A stretch of DNA of 29,652 nucleotides from a virus, in the IMG/VR virus record IMGVR_UViG_3300036945_000206, positions 1 through 29,652 of that record. One strand, given 5' to 3'. A model generated the notes under the pieces. It did not search any database, was not told the origin of the DNA, and was given only the letters and a program-made list of their open reading frames with translations. Shown here piece after piece: positions 1,714 through 28,198 of the stretch. The first letter of the stretch is position 1; each line of letters starts with the position of its first letter. The position numbers and the translations under genes were made by a program.

Positions 1714-2111
1714 TTTGTAACCTCTTCTGCGTATGTATTCAAAACCCAGTTAGCAAACATGATTAATTCTTCTTTAGTTGCGGAAGACTTCATTGTGTTG
1801 GCTAAATGAGACATAATTTGAATATTGTCTTTAGTGTATCCCTTAGTAGAATCTTTTCTATCTATTGACAGACTGTTATTTAAGCTCTTTCCTTCATTTC
1901 TTTTTAATTCAACATTAAAGACAGGGCAGTGAGTAACGCCTTCTATATCTTCTTTTTCAAGATCAAAAGCGATACCTTTTAGTTTTGCTCGCTGCTTCAA
2001 AACAGCCAATGTTCTTTCTACTGGTCGGCTTTTCCCATATGCTTTCTTCTTCTCAATTATTTCATCACGGTGTGCTAAGTAATACTGTCTACTATACTCT
2101 TTTTTATTCAT
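1710..2111 (-). CDS. HNH-like endonuclease without zinc ribbon
   Basis: A 133-residue protein with a basic N-terminus, a CPVFNVEL strand and a core SIDRKDSTKGYTKDNIQIMS followed by LANTMKSSATKEEL. The D-R-x-D...GY...NI pattern is that of the HNH/His-Me finger nucleases carried as free-standing homing-type genes in phages; an Asp occupies the place of the first His. It is a paralogue of the protein at 29125-29595 but lacks that protein's N-terminal zinc ribbon. It sits seamlessly in the replication operon with ATGA overlaps on both sides (2108-2111 and 1710-1713). Role as a homing or recombination nuclease is inferred. Confidence 0.82.
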   Translation of the reverse strand: MNKKEYSRQYYLAHRDEIIEKKKAYGKSRPVERTLAVLKQRAKLKGIAFDLEKEDIEGVTHCPVFNVELKRNEGKSLNNSLSIDRKDSTKGYTKDNIQIMSHLANTMKSSATKEELIMFANWVLNTYAEEVTK

Positions 2112-3700
2112 AATGTTTCCTCTTGCACTTCTACAAGTTTGTTAACTTTCTTATCAAAATATAAACTACCAGCAGGGCCTGTTTCGCCTGTAAATCGTGA
2201 CTTTAACAACCGAAGTTCAGTCGTGTTGCGTTTAGCTTCATCATCATTCTGTTGATCCCTTTGAAGACCGATAACGGCATCCGACAACTGGCTGATACCT
2301 TGAGTGCCTCGTAATGAAGACAAACTAATCTCAGCTCCGTTTTCCAACCCTTTACCATCCTGTCTCCGTGTGTGAGAAATACCAAACAAACCTACTCCTG
2401 TCTCTTCGACAAAGGTACGCAACTTAGTCAGTAACATGTCCAAGCCTTTACGTTCGTCTGTATCCATACCTGACAAAATCATCTGGTAGTGATCCAAGAT
2501 AATCCATTGGCAGTTCTGAGCCTTCACCATGTATCGCAGGCGGTTCAACACATTGTCAATATCCAGCGATCCAAAATGATTGAACAAAACACAACGTCCT
2601 GTACCCATTGTCTTCTGATAAGCCAGTTCAAGCTCCTCTTCGGTGTACTCCGTCTGAGGCAAATGCAAAGGCTTACCAGCTTCAATCGACATGATACCCA
2701 ACGCAGTACGCTCAGGGGATTCCTCCAAGAAAGCCATACCAATATTATCGTCTGTCGTCACCAACAAATGATGAATCAACTGGCGCAAAAACGTAGATTT
2801 ACCTTGACCCGTACCCGCCGCAATGGTGATAAGTTCACGTTTACGCAAACCTGCCATCATGTCGTTCAGTTTAGCATAAGGCCATGACGCATCCGGCAAC
2901 TGCTTAGGCTTACGTAATTCATCCCATAAGTCTTTACCGTTGATAATCCCATCTGGCGTGAAAGGACTAGCCTTCCACCAAGCGTTCACAAAAGCCTTAG
3001 AATCCCCCGCAATCAGGTACTCACAAGCATCCTTGTAGCCATCCTTGTACTGCATGATCTTGGCCTTGTTGCCGAACAACTCAGCCACTTCCTTAGCAGC
3101 CTTCTTACCCGGCTCATCAGCATCGAAGCAGATGACTACAGAGTCAAAGGTGTTGATCCACTCGTAGTTAGCTTTACAGTCCTTTAGCGCTGCTTGAGCG
3201 CCATTACGGATGCTCACTGTAGGGTAGAGAGACCCTTGCATCTGGAAAGCTGCGAGAGCATCCAGCTCTCCTTCTGTGATGGTGAGAGCTTTTCCTCCTT
3301 CGTGAAAAAGAGACTGACCGAATAGAGTTGCTCCGTTGAAGTCTCCTGAGATAGAGAATTTCTTTGTAGAAACAGTGCGTTGCTTTACAGCCGTTCTAAC
3401 TCCATCTCCGTCAGTGTAAGGGTAATACTGGTTGTCTCCATCGGTTGTTACTCCATACTTCTCACAGGTGGCCTGACTGATTCCTCGATCAGGGATTGAT
3501 TTACAAGTGCCTTTTAAGGTCATCTGGGTTGCTTTCTTGAACGCTACTGCGTCCCTCATTACCGTTCGTTCATCATAAGCACCTTCGTGCTCTGTCACAC
3601 CGCAAGCAAAGCAATGTGTGTGTCCATCGTCATAGAGACTGTTCGCATCAGTGCTACCACAATGCTCACAGGCGATATGGCGTAAGAACTTGGATGTCAT
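2108..3700 (-). CDS. primase-helicase, T7 gp4-like
   Basis: A 530-residue bifunctional replication protein that would unwind the fork and make primers for the polymerase encoded downstream. Residues 11-33 form the primase zinc ribbon (C11, C14, C30, C33). The Toprim domain follows, with ITEGELDALA (E143) and CFDADEPG (D193, D195). The C-terminal DnaB-type helicase domain has Walker A AAGTGQGKST (about 294-303), Walker B WIILDHYQ (D403) and ISHTRRQDGKGLE before the arginine-finger region. The layout matches T7 gp4, about 566 aa. The start overlaps the stop of the 47-aa gene (ATGA). The first 12 codons are duplicated, with only synonymous differences, at the start of the gene at 3853-4563. Confidence 0.97.
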   Translation of the reverse strand: MTSKFLRHIACEHCGSTDANSLYDDGHTHCFACGVTEHEGAYDERTVMRDAVAFKKATQMTLKGTCKSIPDRGISQATCEKYGVTTDGDNQYYPYTDGDGVRTAVKQRTVSTKKFSISGDFNGATLFGQSLFHEGGKALTITEGELDALAAFQMQGSLYPTVSIRNGAQAALKDCKANYEWINTFDSVVICFDADEPGKKAAKEVAELFGNKAKIMQYKDGYKDACEYLIAGDSKAFVNAWWKASPFTPDGIINGKDLWDELRKPKQLPDASWPYAKLNDMMAGLRKRELITIAAGTGQGKSTFLRQLIHHLLVTTDDNIGMAFLEESPERTALGIMSIEAGKPLHLPQTEYTEEELELAYQKTMGTGRCVLFNHFGSLDIDNVLNRLRYMVKAQNCQWIILDHYQMILSGMDTDERKGLDMLLTKLRTFVEETGVGLFGISHTRRQDGKGLENGAEISLSSLRGTQGISQLSDAVIGLQRDQQNDDEAKRNTTELRLLKSRFTGETGPAGSLYFDKKVNKLVEVQEETL

Positions 3701-3840: not shown

Positions 3841-3889
3841 TGTTCTTTTCCTTTACAGCGAATTCTTCGCTTTGAGTTTGGCTTCGATG
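3841..3889. repeat. 49-bp gene-junction direct repeat, copy 1
   Basis: Matches 4564-4612 at 48 of 49 positions (the one difference is at the eighth base). Read on the minus strand it encodes the last residues of a protein (IEAKLKAKNSL), its stop, and the AAGGA/GAAGAACA ribosome-binding stretch in front of the next gene. Confidence 0.93.
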
Positions 3890-4563
3890 TCTCGGGCAAA
3901 GTAAAAATAAGTTCCTTCGGGAGATCTAAGATTTTTACTCATCATTGAAGAAATTTCCTCATCCGTCAGCGGCTTGCGCTGTGCTGGTGGGGATGTGAGG
4001 GGAATTGCTTTGTATCCCTTGGCAGCAAGCAATGGCTCATTCTTTTTGAAAGAAAGTTCTTTTAACTCTGGCTTTTTCCCGCACTGATGAAGATACGCAA
4101 TAGGCTCCTGCTCATGCGGCTTCGCCACGGGTGCTGGCTGTGCGGGTGGGGTGGTGAGCCCTGACGTCATGTTGTCAATTTGCGTGAGTACGTCCATCAG
4201 GTCGTCAAACGGCTCCCATTGCGGCGCGGTGAATTGGTAGTGCTTTTTCCAAATGGCTACCGCAAGACGTTTCGCATAGCCATAGGCATCAGGTGGCGGT
4301 TGGATGTAGAGCGGTTGCCACTTCCCACCGTGAGGTGCGCTATCAAACTTAGGCTTGACCCGCTTGTCAGGAAATTCAAACATCCATGCCACAGGCTCCT
4401 GCACAGGTGCTGGCTGTGATGTAAGGAAGTCCCGCATTTCTTTTTGATTGTGCGGTTGCCCACAATCTCCAGCACAGTGATACGCCTTGCAGTATTCAAT
4501 CTCCTGCACAGGTGCTACAAGGGCTTGCTCACAGGCTATATGTCTCAAAAACTTGCTAGTCAC
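3853..4563 (-). CDS. mosaic hypothetical protein with primase leader
   Basis: A 236-residue protein starting with GTG at 4561-4563 behind GGAGAAGAACA. Residues 1-12 (MTSKFLRHIACE) equal the N-terminus of the primase-helicase. The body is built of short modules: EYCKAYHCAGDC, QEPVAWMFEFPD, PPAQPAPV, HEQEPIAYLHQCG, TSPPAQRKPLTDEEI and a final IEAKLKAKNSL. Such Pro/Ala-rich 'EPVAW...PLTDEEI' proteins are common, variable phage/prophage products of unknown function (Ea22-like in style). Codon choice is richer in GCG/CGG/GGC than in the replication genes, suggesting separate acquisition. The zinc-binding cysteines of the primase are incomplete here, so primase activity is not expected. Confidence 0.8.
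   Translation of the reverse strand: MTSKFLRHIACEQALVAPVQEIEYCKAYHCAGDCGQPHNQKEMRDFLTSQPAPVQEPVAWMFEFPDKRVKPKFDSAPHGGKWQPLYIQPPPDAYGYAKRLAVAIWKKHYQFTAPQWEPFDDLMDVLTQIDNMTSGLTTPPAQPAPVAKPHEQEPIAYLHQCGKKPELKELSFKKNEPLLAAKGYKAIPLTSPPAQRKPLTDEEISSMMSKNLRSPEGTYFYFARDIEAKLKAKNSL
4528..4563. repeat. duplicated 5' end of the primase gene
   Basis: Twelve codons, matching 3665-3700. By eye nine of 36 bases differ and none changes the peptide (GTG replaces ATG as start). Similarity stops abruptly after codon 12. Confidence 0.85.
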
Positions 4564-5331: not shown

Positions 5332-5504
5332 TCTTGCCCCTCAGACATTCGTTTCACTGCTTGCATTACGTCAAACATGACCTGTTCATAGCCATTGGCA
5401 CGGATAAGACCAGCCATGTCATCGATCACAGAGTGATACCAGCACTCAAAGCGTATAAGTTCTTGCTCTTGGTTGTCCATATACTCAATCATTGAATCAT
5501 TCAT
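5328..5504 (-). CDS. hypothetical protein, 58 aa; first gene behind promoter
   Basis: Start at 5502-5504, TGA at 5328-5330. The product starts MNDSMIEYMDNQEQEL and is helical and acidic with a Cys-Trp pair (FECWYHSVIDDM). It is the first gene downstream of the sigma70 promoter at 5718-5745 and its about 200-nt structured leader. Another ATG lies three codons downstream. No domain recognised. Confidence 0.68.
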   Translation of the reverse strand: MNDSMIEYMDNQEQELIRFECWYHSVIDDMAGLIRANGYEQVMFDVMQAVKRMSEGQE

Positions 5505-5520
5505 ATTAACACCTGTTGAT

Positions 5521-5635
5521 GAAAGTTACTAACATTTAGACACCAATCTAACATTGTCTATGTTACATAGAGACTTTAACGTTACTTTAATGTTACTTTA
5601 ACGTCCTAAGACGTTTACATCAATGCTTATACGTT
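5521..5635 (-). repeat. iteron-like repeats and palindrome in leader
   Basis: On the minus strand TTAAAGTAAC recurs in tandem about every 11 bases: 5601-5591, 5590-5580 and a partial copy from 5579. A thirteen-base palindrome, CTATGTTACATAG, is at 5558-5570. AGTAAC and AACATT words recur through the segment. It is very AT-rich and non-coding. It may bind a protein in several copies, as an operator or an origin-type iteron cluster would. Confidence 0.55.
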
Positions 5636-5678
5636 AATGTTATAAGTACTTAGTATAAGTAACTATTAGTAGGTTAAC
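5636..5678 (-). promoter_or_regulatory. conserved 43-nt leader element, copy L
   Basis: Read in the direction of leftward transcription, this segment matches 9584-9626 (rightward) at 39 of 43 positions. It starts GTTAACCTACTAA and contains AGTTACTTATA and AAGTACTTATAA. It lies about 40 nt downstream of a perfect -10 box and upstream of the first gene at 5504. AAGTACTT is self-complementary and ACTTATA occurs twice. Function is not known; an antitermination, operator or phage promoter element are the main options. Confidence 0.8.
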
Positions 5679-5717
5679 ATCAATGAATAGAAGCAACGTC
5701 TCAGTCTCTGTAGTATT

Positions 5718-5745
5718 ATTATATCCGCTGTTCAATCCTTGTCAA
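5718..5745 (-). promoter_or_regulatory. sigma70 promoter, perfect boxes, leftward
   Basis: On the minus strand TTGACA (5745-5740), a 16-bp spacer and TATAAT (5723-5718), all consensus. The -35 box lies inside the last codons of the gene at 5732-5965. It should drive the replication operon from 5504 leftward using host RNA polymerase. Confidence 0.88.
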
Positions 5746-5965
5746 GCTCTAAAGTGTAACAAGATGTAACAGAGTCAGTGTCTTCGATGTCCATATCGTC
5801 ATCGTAGTCAGCCTCCTTCAACAAGTCCTGTCTGTCTTTGGTAGGGATGTTAGGAATGTCCTTCATGCACCGATTGCAGGTGTCCAAGAATTCATTTGTG
5901 AGGGCATGTCTACGTGTTGATTCGTAGTCATTCAGTTTACGGTCACAGCATACACAACGGGTCAT
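5732..5965 (-). CDS. Cys-rich (zinc-finger-like) phage protein, 77 aa
   Basis: The N-terminus CVCCDRKLNDYESTRRH followed by LDTCNRCM gives two CxxC pairs about 25 residues apart, a small treble-clef/zinc-ribbon pattern I recall from small conserved phage proteins. The C-terminal half is highly acidic (DYDDDMDIEDTD). The start overlaps the previous stop by four bases. It is the last gene before the leftward promoter, whose -35 box lies inside its 3' end. Role unknown; DNA, RNA or protein binding is plausible. Confidence 0.8.
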   Translation of the reverse strand: MTRCVCCDRKLNDYESTRRHALTNEFLDTCNRCMKDIPNIPTKDRQDLLKEADYDDDMDIEDTDSVTSCYTLELDKD

Positions 5966-6256: not shown

Positions 6257-6340
6257 TCAATGAGCCAGCGAATCATAGTATCCAGCGATCATGTAAGCTA
6301 AAAGCACTATTGACAGCACTAGCCAATGGTTAGGTTTCAT
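6257..6340 (-). CDS. single-pass membrane micro-protein, 27 aa
   Basis: Start at 6338-6340, TGA at 6257-6259. The sequence MKPNHWLVLSIVLLAYMIAG is a short positively charged start followed by one membrane helix, then YYDSLAH. The start overlaps the stop of the upstream hexapeptide-repeat gene by four bases (ATGA), supporting coupled translation. Function unknown. Confidence 0.58.
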   Translation of the reverse strand: MKPNHWLVLSIVLLAYMIAGYYDSLAH

Positions 6341-6804
6341 TCTGTGACTTCAAAGTTGAAAGCTATCATCTGATAGAATAGCCGATACTGCTCTAAATGT
6401 TCCCTGTTGTCTTTGTGTGTTTTCTCGATAGCTTCTGAAAACTCTTTTACAGTGCCGCTAAAGCACCCACAATTTACCCTTACACCAATTTTAGAGTCTT
6501 TGTGGGCAGTGGTGAAGCGACCAGAAGATTTTGCAGGCCCAAGGACCAAATAATCCGCTGTTTTCTCAATTTGTGCATTCCCGGACACCCGTGCATACCC
6601 GGACACCTGTGCATTCCCGGACACCTGTGCATTCCCGTCCACCCGTGCATTCCCGTCCACCTGTGCATTCCCGTCCACCTGTGCATTCCCGAACACCCGT
6701 GCATCCCCGTACACCAGTGCATTCCCGAACACCTGTGCATCCCCGAACACCCGTGCATTTCCTAGAATGTGTTTTCCTTTAATGTTTTTCTCAATTGTAG
6801 TCAT
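6337..6804 (-). CDS. hexapeptide-repeat (beta-helix) phage protein
   Basis: A 155-residue protein. Residues 15-80 are eleven hexapeptides of the form G-N/D-A-R/Q-V-x, which would form a left-handed parallel beta helix. A conserved-looking C-terminal part follows: DYLVLGPAKSSGRFTTAH, CGCFSGTVKEFSEAIEKTHKD and a final helix. I recognise this two-part architecture from hypothetical phage and bacterial proteins; the C-terminal part may be the active portion. The repeats are nearly identical at the DNA level, so copy number can change by slippage or recombination. A good AAAGGA site precedes the ATG. Confidence 0.85.
   Translation of the reverse strand: MTTIEKNIKGKHILGNARVFGDAQVFGNALVYGDARVFGNAQVDGNAQVDGNARVDGNAQVSGNAQVSGYARVSGNAQIEKTADYLVLGPAKSSGRFTTAHKDSKIGVRVNCGCFSGTVKEFSEAIEKTHKDNREHLEQYRLFYQMIAFNFEVTE
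6565..6762 (-). repeat. tandem 18-bp coding repeat, about 11 units
   Basis: Units of the GTGCATTCCCGGACACCT type (plus strand) encode the hexapeptides of the gene at 6337-6804. Neighbouring units differ by one to four bases; the triplet that changes most encodes the sixth residue (S, D, F or Y). Runs of identical sixth residues (SSS, DDD) suggest recent unit duplication. Confidence 0.95.
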
Positions 6805-8916: not shown

Positions 8917-8943
8917 ATTGTATCAGACTTTTAGCATTGTCAA
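8917..8943 (-). promoter_or_regulatory. candidate leftward early promoter
   Basis: On the minus strand TTGACA (8943-8938) and TACAAT (8922-8917) with a 15-bp spacer, slightly shorter than ideal. It is correctly placed for the early operon beginning at 8866. Confidence 0.6.
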
Positions 8944-8975
8944 TAGCTTTTCAACAATTTTATAGTGACAAACCC

Positions 8976-8995
8976 TAATGTATATCTGTACAGTA
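8976..8995. promoter_or_regulatory. LexA-like SOS box, weaker copy
   Basis: TAATGTATATCTGTACAGTA matches the E. coli LexA consensus at 17 of 20 positions, but one half-site is ATGT instead of CTGT. It ends six bases before the parS match. Confidence 0.5.
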
Positions 8996-9001
8996 CTGTA
9001 T

Positions 9002-9017
9002 TGTTTCACGTGGAACA
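9002..9017. other. parS-like centromere site for host ParB
   Basis: TGTTTCACGTGGAACA is the exact reverse complement of the Bacillus subtilis parS site TGTTCCACGTGAAACA and fits the widely conserved chromosomal consensus TGTTNCACGTGAAACA. Chromosomal ParB binds this site and then loads onto neighbouring DNA as a CTP-dependent clamp. The site lies in non-coding DNA between the divergent transcription units; I found no second CACGTG core in the window. No ParB or ParA gene is seen here, so a host ParB is the likely partner. Confidence 0.85.
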
Positions 9018-9068
9018 TTGGGTTATATTGTGACTGAATAGTTGCGTTATAGTCTGGCAAGTATACGT

Positions 9069-9133
9069 TGTAGGTTCCTACATCGTCCCTCACACATGCA
9101 CTATAATGCATACTCCTAATGACCCGCTGGTCA
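9069..9133. other. two short dyads in control region
   Basis: TGTAGGTTCCTACA (9069-9082) and TGACCCGCTGGTCA (9120-9133) are perfect inverted repeats with loops of two and four bases. They may be operators or small hairpins. The segment has no supported gene. Confidence 0.4.
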
Positions 9134-9143
9134 GTAACGTGAC

Positions 9144-9163
9144 TACTGTATGCCTGTACAGTA
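9144..9163. promoter_or_regulatory. LexA-like SOS box, tandem copy A
   Basis: TACTGTATGCCTGTACAGTA has the exact CTGT-N8-ACAG core and flanking TA/TA of the E. coli-type LexA box; four central positions differ from the consensus. Confidence 0.75.
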
Positions 9164-9181
9164 CTGTATAGATGTACAGTG
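9162..9181. promoter_or_regulatory. LexA-like SOS box, tandem copy B
   Basis: TACTGTATAGATGTACAGTG has the exact CTGT-N8-ACAG core and matches the consensus at 17 of 20 positions. With copy A it forms an 18-bp direct repeat (15 of 18 identical). It overlaps the -10 region of the candidate promoter at 9165-9192. Confidence 0.75.
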
Positions 9182-9192
9182 TTGTATGTAAA
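9165..9192 (-). promoter_or_regulatory. candidate leftward promoter under SOS box
   Basis: On the minus strand TTTACA (9192-9187), a 16-bp spacer and TATACA (9170-9165). The -10 box and most of the spacer are covered by SOS box B, as in many LexA-repressed promoters. Weaker than the promoter at 5718-5745. Confidence 0.45.
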
Positions 9193-9465: not shown

Positions 9466-9493
9466 TTGCATTCCGACAAAAGCATGCTATACT
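9466..9493 (+). promoter_or_regulatory. candidate rightward promoter for structural genes
   Basis: TTGCAT (9466-9471), a 16-bp spacer and TATACT (9488-9493). It is the best sigma70-like match on the plus strand upstream of the terminase block and lies 91 bases before the conserved leader element. Confidence 0.55.
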
Positions 9494-9583
9494 TATTATA
9501 CTGTACTATGAAGTGACGAAGAAGGTGATGGACTCTTATGTTGCTAAGCAGGAATCTGGACAGTTGATACAACGAATGTATAA

Positions 9584-9626
9584 GTTAACCTACTAACAGT
9601 TACTTATAACAAGTACTTATAATATT
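9584..9626 (+). promoter_or_regulatory. conserved 43-nt leader element, copy R
   Basis: Matches the leftward leader element at 5636-5678 (opposite strand) at 39 of 43 positions, in the same orientation relative to its downstream genes. A TATAAT word at 9618-9623 could serve as a -10 box in this copy, but the other copy reads TATAAC, so promoter function is uncertain. Palindromes follow at 9628-9640 (AACTTAGTAAGTT) and 9659-9672 (TTAAAGTACTTTAA), and a GTGCGAAGCAC mini-hairpin at 9673-9683. Confidence 0.8.
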
Positions 9627-9732
9627 TAACTTAGTAAGTTCTTAACTTATACGTTCCTTTAAAGTACTTTAAGTGCGAAGCACGGTAAGCATGGATGTTT
9701 TGTCTAACTAACAGGATGTCTATACTTAAGGT

Positions 9733-9807
9733 ATGTCTACCAAACAAAAGACACCTAGTGATAGGCTTGAAACACGTTTACAGGTGCGTGTGTCTGAACA
9801 CCTGTAG
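9733..9807 (+). CDS. possible 24-aa leader peptide
   Basis: A short frame encodes MSTKQKTPSDRLETRLQVRV plus SEHL and ends inside the 3' arm of the hairpin at 9780-9805. The composition is protein-like and it precedes the zinc-ribbon gene by 19 bases, but the ribosome binding site is poorly placed. Translation through it would open the hairpin, so it might act in attenuation. Low confidence. Confidence 0.25.
   Translation: MSTKQKTPSDRLETRLQVRVSEHL
9780..9805 (+). promoter_or_regulatory. leader hairpin before first rightward gene
   Basis: ACAGGTG (9780-9786) pairs with CACCTGT (9799-9805) around a 12-base loop and is followed by AGCTTTTC. The ribosome binding site AGAGGA (9815-9820) lies immediately after. 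It may be a weak terminator/attenuator or a messenger-stabilising hairpin. Confidence 0.5.
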
Positions 9808-9826
9808 CTTTTCAAGAGGAATCAAA

Positions 9827-10096
9827 ATGGAAAACACACCACGTCTCTATGACGTTCAAGAAACTAAGGTTTTAACAGAACACTTACATCATTTGTCTAA
9901 AACACAAGATGAGCGTAAGGAATATAACAAGAGTAGGTACACACAGCAGAAAGCTGTTAAAGAGTCTTTAAGCAAAGGTGTTAAGTCCTGTGCTAAGTGC
10001 GGTGAAGAAAAGAAGTTGTTTGACTTCTACGCTGATAAGAAAAGCTACTCTGGCTACTCTAGCTACTGCAAAGAGTGCAAGAAAGCAACCGTATGA
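9827..10096 (+). CDS. zinc-ribbon protein, 89 aa
   Basis: The ATG at 9827-9829 was chosen because AAGAGGA lies just upstream; the longer frame from 9695 has no good site and an odd composition. The N-terminal half is charged and helical. The C-terminal half is a zinc ribbon: CAKCGEEKKLFDFYADKKSY, then YCKECKKATV. The same CxxC...F...CxxC layout begins the HNH nuclease at 29125-29595, so this looks like a free-standing zinc-ribbon module. It is the first gene of the structural operon and overlaps the small terminase start (ATGA). DNA binding near the packaging genes is an inference. Confidence 0.78.
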   Translation: MENTPRLYDVQETKVLTEHLHHLSKTQDERKEYNKSRYTQQKAVKESLSKGVKSCAKCGEEKKLFDFYADKKSYSGYSSYCKECKKATV

Positions 10097-16034: not shown

Positions 16035-16046
16035 TAGGTGATTAAG

Positions 16047-16070
16047 GAGGGCCCTTCGGGGCTCTCTTTT
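16047..16070 (+). terminator. intrinsic terminator after capsid gene
   Basis: Eight-base-pair stem (GAGGGCCC with GGGCTCTC, one G-T pair) closed by a TTCG tetraloop and followed by TTTTCTTT. It begins 13 bases after the capsid stop. Confidence 0.9.
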
Positions 16071-16116
16071 CTTTACTACTTATTATCCGTGAGTAATAAA
16101 TAAAGGAGATACACAG

Positions 16117-27530: not shown

Positions 27531-27565
27531 AAGGCCACTAGAGTTTACGCTCTAGTGGCCTTTTT
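27531..27565 (+). terminator. strong terminator between convergent operons
   Basis: A perfect 13-bp stem (AAGGCCACTAGAG at 27531-27543, CTCTAGTGGCCTT at 27550-27562) with a six-base loop and a T tract to 27565. It lies after the last rightward gene, and its reverse reads as a hairpin followed by TTATCTGTTT, so it may also stop the leftward transcript from the ClpP-like gene. Confidence 0.95.
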
Positions 27566-27568
27566 CGT

Positions 27569-28198
27569 TTACTCTACAGTAACTTCCTTAACCTTCTTAG
27601 GCTTAGGCGGCTTACTCAGCCCATTAAGATACTTATAACGCTTCACCATCCGCTTACCTGCCTCTTCAGCGTCGAACCAGAACTCCTTCCCATTCTTCAG
27701 CTCATCCAGTTCCTTAGCTGTCAAGAAACCCGTGTAGCAGGTATCAAGTAGCTTGTTAATCTGCTTGGTAGCAAAGTCAGTCTGGTTCTTGATGTTAGGC
27801 ACTGTACCGATAGAGCCATAATGAGCTGTGTGGAGCATGAAGTCTGCGCTCTCAGCGATGTAGCACTCATTAGCCATACAAGCAATCATAGAGGCGGCGC
27901 TGTAGGCAGAACCAAGGACAGTCACAGAGACATCTCCTCGACAACCCTTCATGGCCTCAATGATTGACCATGCACTATCAGCACGTCCACCTGAGCTGTT
28001 AATCAAGATGTTCACGTTATCATTCTCACCACACGTAGCCAAGCAGTGAATGACATCACGGTAGTTACCCGGAGAAGTAATATCTTCATCCAAGAATACC
28101 AAGTGAGTGCTCATCTGCTGAGTGCTTGTACGGATAAGACCTTTTTGCTCTGGCATCATCATCATTAGTTCTTCAATTCCTTCGTTAGCTTTAGCCAT
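27569..28198 (-). CDS. ClpP-like serine protease
   Basis: A 209-residue protein of the ClpP/crotonase-fold protease family. INSSGGRADSAWSIIEAM is the usual oxyanion region, GSAYSAASMIACMA carries the nucleophile S103, and FMLHTAHYGSIG carries H123. Where E. coli ClpP has the catalytic Asp (RDRFLSA), this sequence has KEFWFDA, so the third residue may be Glu or the Asp two positions later. Phage copies are often head-maturation proteases placed beside the portal; this one instead stands on the opposite strand with PhoH, so it may process other targets. It overlaps PhoH by one base (TAATG). Confidence 0.88.
   Translation of the reverse strand: MAKANEGIEELMMMMPEQKGLIRTSTQQMSTHLVFLDEDITSPGNYRDVIHCLATCGENDNVNILINSSGGRADSAWSIIEAMKGCRGDVSVTVLGSAYSAASMIACMANECYIAESADFMLHTAHYGSIGTVPNIKNQTDFATKQINKLLDTCYTGFLTAKELDELKNGKEFWFDAEEAGKRMVKRYKYLNGLSKPPKPKKVKEVTVE

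Follow-up and report, generated by a model that had tools for sequence, protein, structure and literature searches.

The window analysed here, a 29,652-base IMG/VR virus record that is classed as linear and is therefore probably incomplete, carries a 43-nt element in two copies, and the question raised by this locus was what such a pair does. The left copy was located at 5636..5678 on the minus strand in the replication transcript, and the right copy at 9584..9626 on the plus strand in the structural transcript. As a preliminary description of this DNA had claimed, the copies lie on opposite strands and are identical at 39 of 43 positions (91% complementarity over 43 nt); 3,905 nt separate them. 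A degenerate search with the 43-mer retrieved these two matches only from the window, with none expected from shuffled sequences. The outward orientation that had been claimed was likewise confirmed by gene content, with DNA polymerase, primase/helicase, and endonuclease VII encoded leftward, and terminase, portal, capsid, tail, and holin encoded rightward. Within the leftward set, the primase gene (2108-3700, minus strand) and an unrelated-looking gene upstream of it (3853-4563, minus strand) share the first residues TSKFLRHIACE, a likeness that would suit a duplication of the beginning of the primase gene.

Searching viral contigs by pattern and by protein yielded more than 200 related loci, and a profile of the element was scanned over 2.6 Mb. 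Counts were taken from the 49 loci in which terminase and primase are both present, with some loci overlapping the same phage. Of these 49, 39 had a single left and a single right copy with orientation kept, 3 had the right copy alone, and 7 had neither; more than two copies were seen in none. In two of the three right-only loci, a separate search recovered a left copy of shorter form (Lc28). The pair was still present at terminase identities as low as 57-58%. The search for further copies that the preliminary description had proposed thus ended with two in the window and a pair kept in most of the relatives, which indicates that the element is neither a chance duplication nor private to this phage. 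Across genomes, left and right copies agreed with each other in the tip sequence at about 74% identity, and the sign that the copies of one genome evolve in concert was weak (p=0.047, Mantel r=0.05). The strict element pattern had no match in 84,980 bacterial and archaeal genomes, a terminase search of bacterial genomes gave no match, and the nearest isolate was distant, with a terminase at best 29% identical. Rfam held no family matching the element beyond chance, even at relaxed thresholds, and no account of it was found in the papers searched.

We then considered where the element lies relative to the promoters. A σ70-like promoter upstream of each copy had been claimed, and this was borne out in the window and proved near-perfect in the relatives. 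The left promoter (TTGACA-16-TATAAT, 5718..5745, minus strand) matches the hexamers at 12 of 12 positions, its -35 box falling in the end of the gene at 5732-5965; the right one (TTGCAT-16-TATACT, 9466..9493, plus strand) is weaker. In relatives, the right promoter was mostly TTGACA-17-TATAAT or a close match at the equivalent place, and most promoters had 12/12 hexamer matches, scoring 12.25-12.5 with the spacer bonus versus a 99% control quantile of 10.25. The element core was mostly found about 36-61 nt past the -10 box on the replication side and about 92-126 nt past it on the structural side of these genomes. Since near-perfect σ70 promoters sit 5' to each copy, the element is transcribed and is not itself a promoter. 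The suggestion of a phage-specific promoter was therefore dropped, the -10-like TATAAT inside the right copy not being kept in left copies. A T7-type promoter fared no better, in that the element is not at the start site and σ70 promoters lie upstream of it in relatives; a search for T7-type RNA polymerase (PF00940) found no match in 13 relatives, which counts for little because the positive control gave none either.

The inverted repeat proved to extend well beyond the 43 nt, which form just its conserved tip; this corrects the earlier description. On the left, the tip, which is kept in relatives, crowns a rod of about 110 nt (5602..5711, minus strand), so that the predicted 5' end of the transcript would form one long imperfect hairpin. 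The left leader of the window (212 nt) had a folding z of -3.4, and its rod matched the covariance model with 95.6 bits, the window being among the training sequences of that model. On the right, a rod of about 86 nt (9571..9659, plus strand) has outer arms at 9571-9588 and 9642-9659 that are 89% complementary and enclose the element. In the apical module the order is TACTATAAG-(0 to 8 nt)-TACTTA-loop-TAAGTA-CTTATA, where TATAAG stands opposite CTTATA and TACTTA opposite TAAGTA; the first half-site is degenerate in the window (CTAACAG / CTAATAG). A left rod of the relatives runs, for example, GACACTAAGAC...GCTTCTATGC, tip, GCATAGAAG...GTCTTAGTGTC, and the arms of the right rod are GAATGTATAAGTTAA...TTAACTTATACGTTC. 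Across the leaders of the main set, the mean folding z was -4.1 on the left and -3.0 on the right, and the paired cells amounted to 89.5% and 86.9% respectively, falling to 31-46% once one arm was slid. RNAalifold reported no structure when all left leaders were aligned with MAFFT, since the arms misalign, and the structured covariance model outscored a sequence-only model for only some of the held-out loci. A block, GAATCTGGACAGTTGATACAACGAA (9552..9576, plus strand), is almost invariant across right leaders and was not found in left leaders. A leader peptide at 9530-9595 (ATGGACTCT..., with its stop within the element) was considered and rejected, the frame being shortened or shifted in relatives. 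Further downstream, at 9780-9804 on the plus strand, another hairpin leader, ACAGGTGCGTGTGTC..AACACCTG, precedes an endonuclease VII-like gene and was seen in 33 loci; its differing places in relatives (after terminase in L069, for example) suggest a travelling cassette.

The rods did not accompany promoters in general. In a 36.9-kb relative (G003), the two promoters described above were the only perfect ones. Other perfect promoters in related genomes, 5' to tRNA-like sequences or internal genes, had leaders without rods, as did the early promoters examined; it follows that only the two transcripts leading the operons have the element. The window has a probable early leftward promoter (TTGACA-15-TACAAT, 8917..8943, minus strand), whose leader has no copy of the element. 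Between it and the right promoter, at 8975-9187, lie repeated palindromic CTGTACAGTACTGTA motifs, possibly an operator or an origin. The tRNA-like sequences, probably tRNA-Leu, follow perfect σ70 promoters directly in three loci (L124, G007 1605; L128, G009 7445; L102, G012 13963); the window has no tRNA gene.

Whether the element acts as RNA or as DNA was judged from the relatives, and action as RNA is probable. In one clade (L061, L066, and L062; terminase 80-81% identical), the primary sequence was lost, yet rods are still predicted for the left and the right leader; these leaders escaped the structured covariance model. Their left rods folded with -25.8, -30.0, and -30.4 kcal/mol in the sense direction versus -17.2, -19.4, and -19.3 kcal/mol in the antisense direction. 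RNA is favored because the transcribed strand thus gives the left rod an advantage of 8.6 to 11.1 kcal/mol. Dyad columns selected without regard to G.U contained 47 G.U against 17 A.C, in cells that are not independent. Covariation was not above shuffles on the left and was modest on the right, where the score was reached by 11 of 500 shuffles and the paired cells by 0 of 500. In the main set the antisense strand folded about equally well (left p=0.12; the right leaned antisense, p=0.056). With weak covariation and no strand bias in the main set, action as RNA is probable rather than proven.

The similar folding of both strands in the main set would suit a site in DNA, where tandem palindromic half-sites (TATAAGT / ACTTATA) would let a phage regulator repress or activate both operons, and inverted half-sites do make up the apical module. 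The half-sites, however, stand anywhere between 0 and about 8 nt apart, unlike the fixed spacing of a dimeric operator, and the element lies tens of nucleotides downstream of the start sites. The strong strand asymmetry of the one clade, the excess of G.U, and the rods that outlast the loss of sequence also speak against it, and we regard the operator reading as the less likely one and, taken by itself, as improbable.

The layout of the operons suggests what such an RNA might do. In near-complete relatives, the left operon spans about 14-16 kb and ends at a strong terminator, and the right one about 17-18 kb. Inside the structural operon, an intrinsic terminator (16046..16075, plus strand) directly follows the major capsid gene; it is conserved in relatives with compensatory changes in its stem, and an antiterminator would therefore have something to read through. 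No strong consensus promoter was seen in the window between this terminator and the tail genes, and the operon ends at a strong terminator (27531..27570) that is bidirectional in several relatives. In the replication operon no strong internal intrinsic terminator was seen, so that an antiterminator would have few obstacles to deal with on that side, pausing and Rho aside. Leaky terminators after the capsid gene are common, as in T7, and need no antiterminator.

We tentatively favor a reading, close to the RNA-level control that the preliminary description had thought plausible, in which the leader hairpin makes the host polymerase processive over both long operons, in the manner of put or nut. 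The element would be the tip of a hairpin in the 5' leader RNA of both long transcripts made by the host σ70 RNA polymerase. As it emerges, the hairpin would load onto the elongating polymerase, by itself or aided by a host or phage factor. The polymerase would then turn processive and pass terminators and pause sites along the whole of each operon (about 14-18 kb), with one site serving each. Both action as RNA and action on elongation are what we infer from these comparisons. The long operons, the capsid terminator, the lack of a strong consensus promoter for the tail genes in the window, and the parallel with HK022 given below all fit a processivity leader acting in cis. If so, the element may explain how operons of about 15 kb are expressed from one leading promoter each, with no recognised phage RNA polymerase. 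A stronger version, in which lytic environmental phages possess a new family of leader RNAs that need no protein to make the host RNA polymerase resistant to terminators on both operons, seems rather doubtful at present.

Part of the same evidence would also suit a leader hairpin for processing or stability, with the rods being RNase III sites or shielding the two long mRNAs from decay. The phage RNase III sites in the lambda N leader and in T7 are long imperfect hairpins in leaders, the rods here are long, imperfect, and double-stranded, the left one begins at the predicted 5' end, and structure is kept despite the sequence change in one clade. A general nuclease, however, has no need of the specific tip sequence that left and right copies share at about 74%, which distinguishes the element from the lambda N leader and T7 sites; the right rod begins about 70-85 nt into the transcript and so cannot protect its 5' end, and other strong promoters lack rods. 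We give this explanation a modest probability, below that of a processivity leader. A phage protein might instead bind the RNA and control translation or attenuation of both operons, leaving polymerase unchanged. The shared tip sequence and the existence of uncharacterised small early proteins would be in keeping with this, but the rods of the window precede the first probable start codons (5504 and 9827) by about 100-170 nt and no leader terminator was seen, making such control quite unlikely. A site for replication, recombination, or packaging, for instance a cruciform, duplicated by chance, would account for palindromic DNA in two copies; it is very improbable given the link to promoters and the orientation fixed in both transcripts over wide divergence.

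Among known systems, lambda nut (boxA/boxB with N) resembles the element in that two divergent transcripts each have an RNA site in the leader. No boxA was found on the transcribed strand in 5500-5711 (minus) or 9502-9830 (plus). N proteins are poorly conserved; searches of the small early proteins recognised no N-like gene and gave no Pfam match except a YdcK solenoid protein. The gene for this YdcK-type beta-solenoid (6337-6804, minus strand) is built from 18-bp tandem DNA repeats and has DNA-level matches in a few unrelated phages only (Aeromonas, Bacteroides, Xanthomonas). The leader hairpins of ops/RfaH and LoaP also serve processive elongation across long operons, but these are host sites for NusG paralogues, and the searches made of the window recognised no gene for such a paralogue.

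The closest likeness is to HK022, where put is an RNA of about 70 nt with two stem-loops that acts on the early operons; putL closely follows PL, whereas putR is some 270 nt downstream of PR, and both act on the host RNA polymerase, at least 10 kb away (PMC9378689). As with putL and putR, the window has two related RNAs with predicted structure, one in each divergent σ70 leader, one near the start site and the other further in. HK022 uses no dedicated RNA polymerase, and none was detected here in the weakly controlled search of 13 relatives. Unlike put, each is predicted as a single long AT-rich rod, and the operons concerned are replication and structural. Comparison of the element with the HK022 immunity region, in which put is not annotated, gave chance-level short matches only. 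By these tests the element is not put, since the fold differs and the sequence does not match, nor nut, since there is no boxA. The element, though outside the put family, may nevertheless work like put. An antitermination RNA that acts on polymerase is known in detail for HK022, where read-through is protein-independent and depends on the zinc-binding domain of beta-prime, and the pair of leader rods in a large group of environmental phages offers a compact, testable second candidate. Should the protein-free version be true, the task of HK022 put would have been solved a second time by unrelated means, with the fold kept and the sequence replaced in a sister clade.
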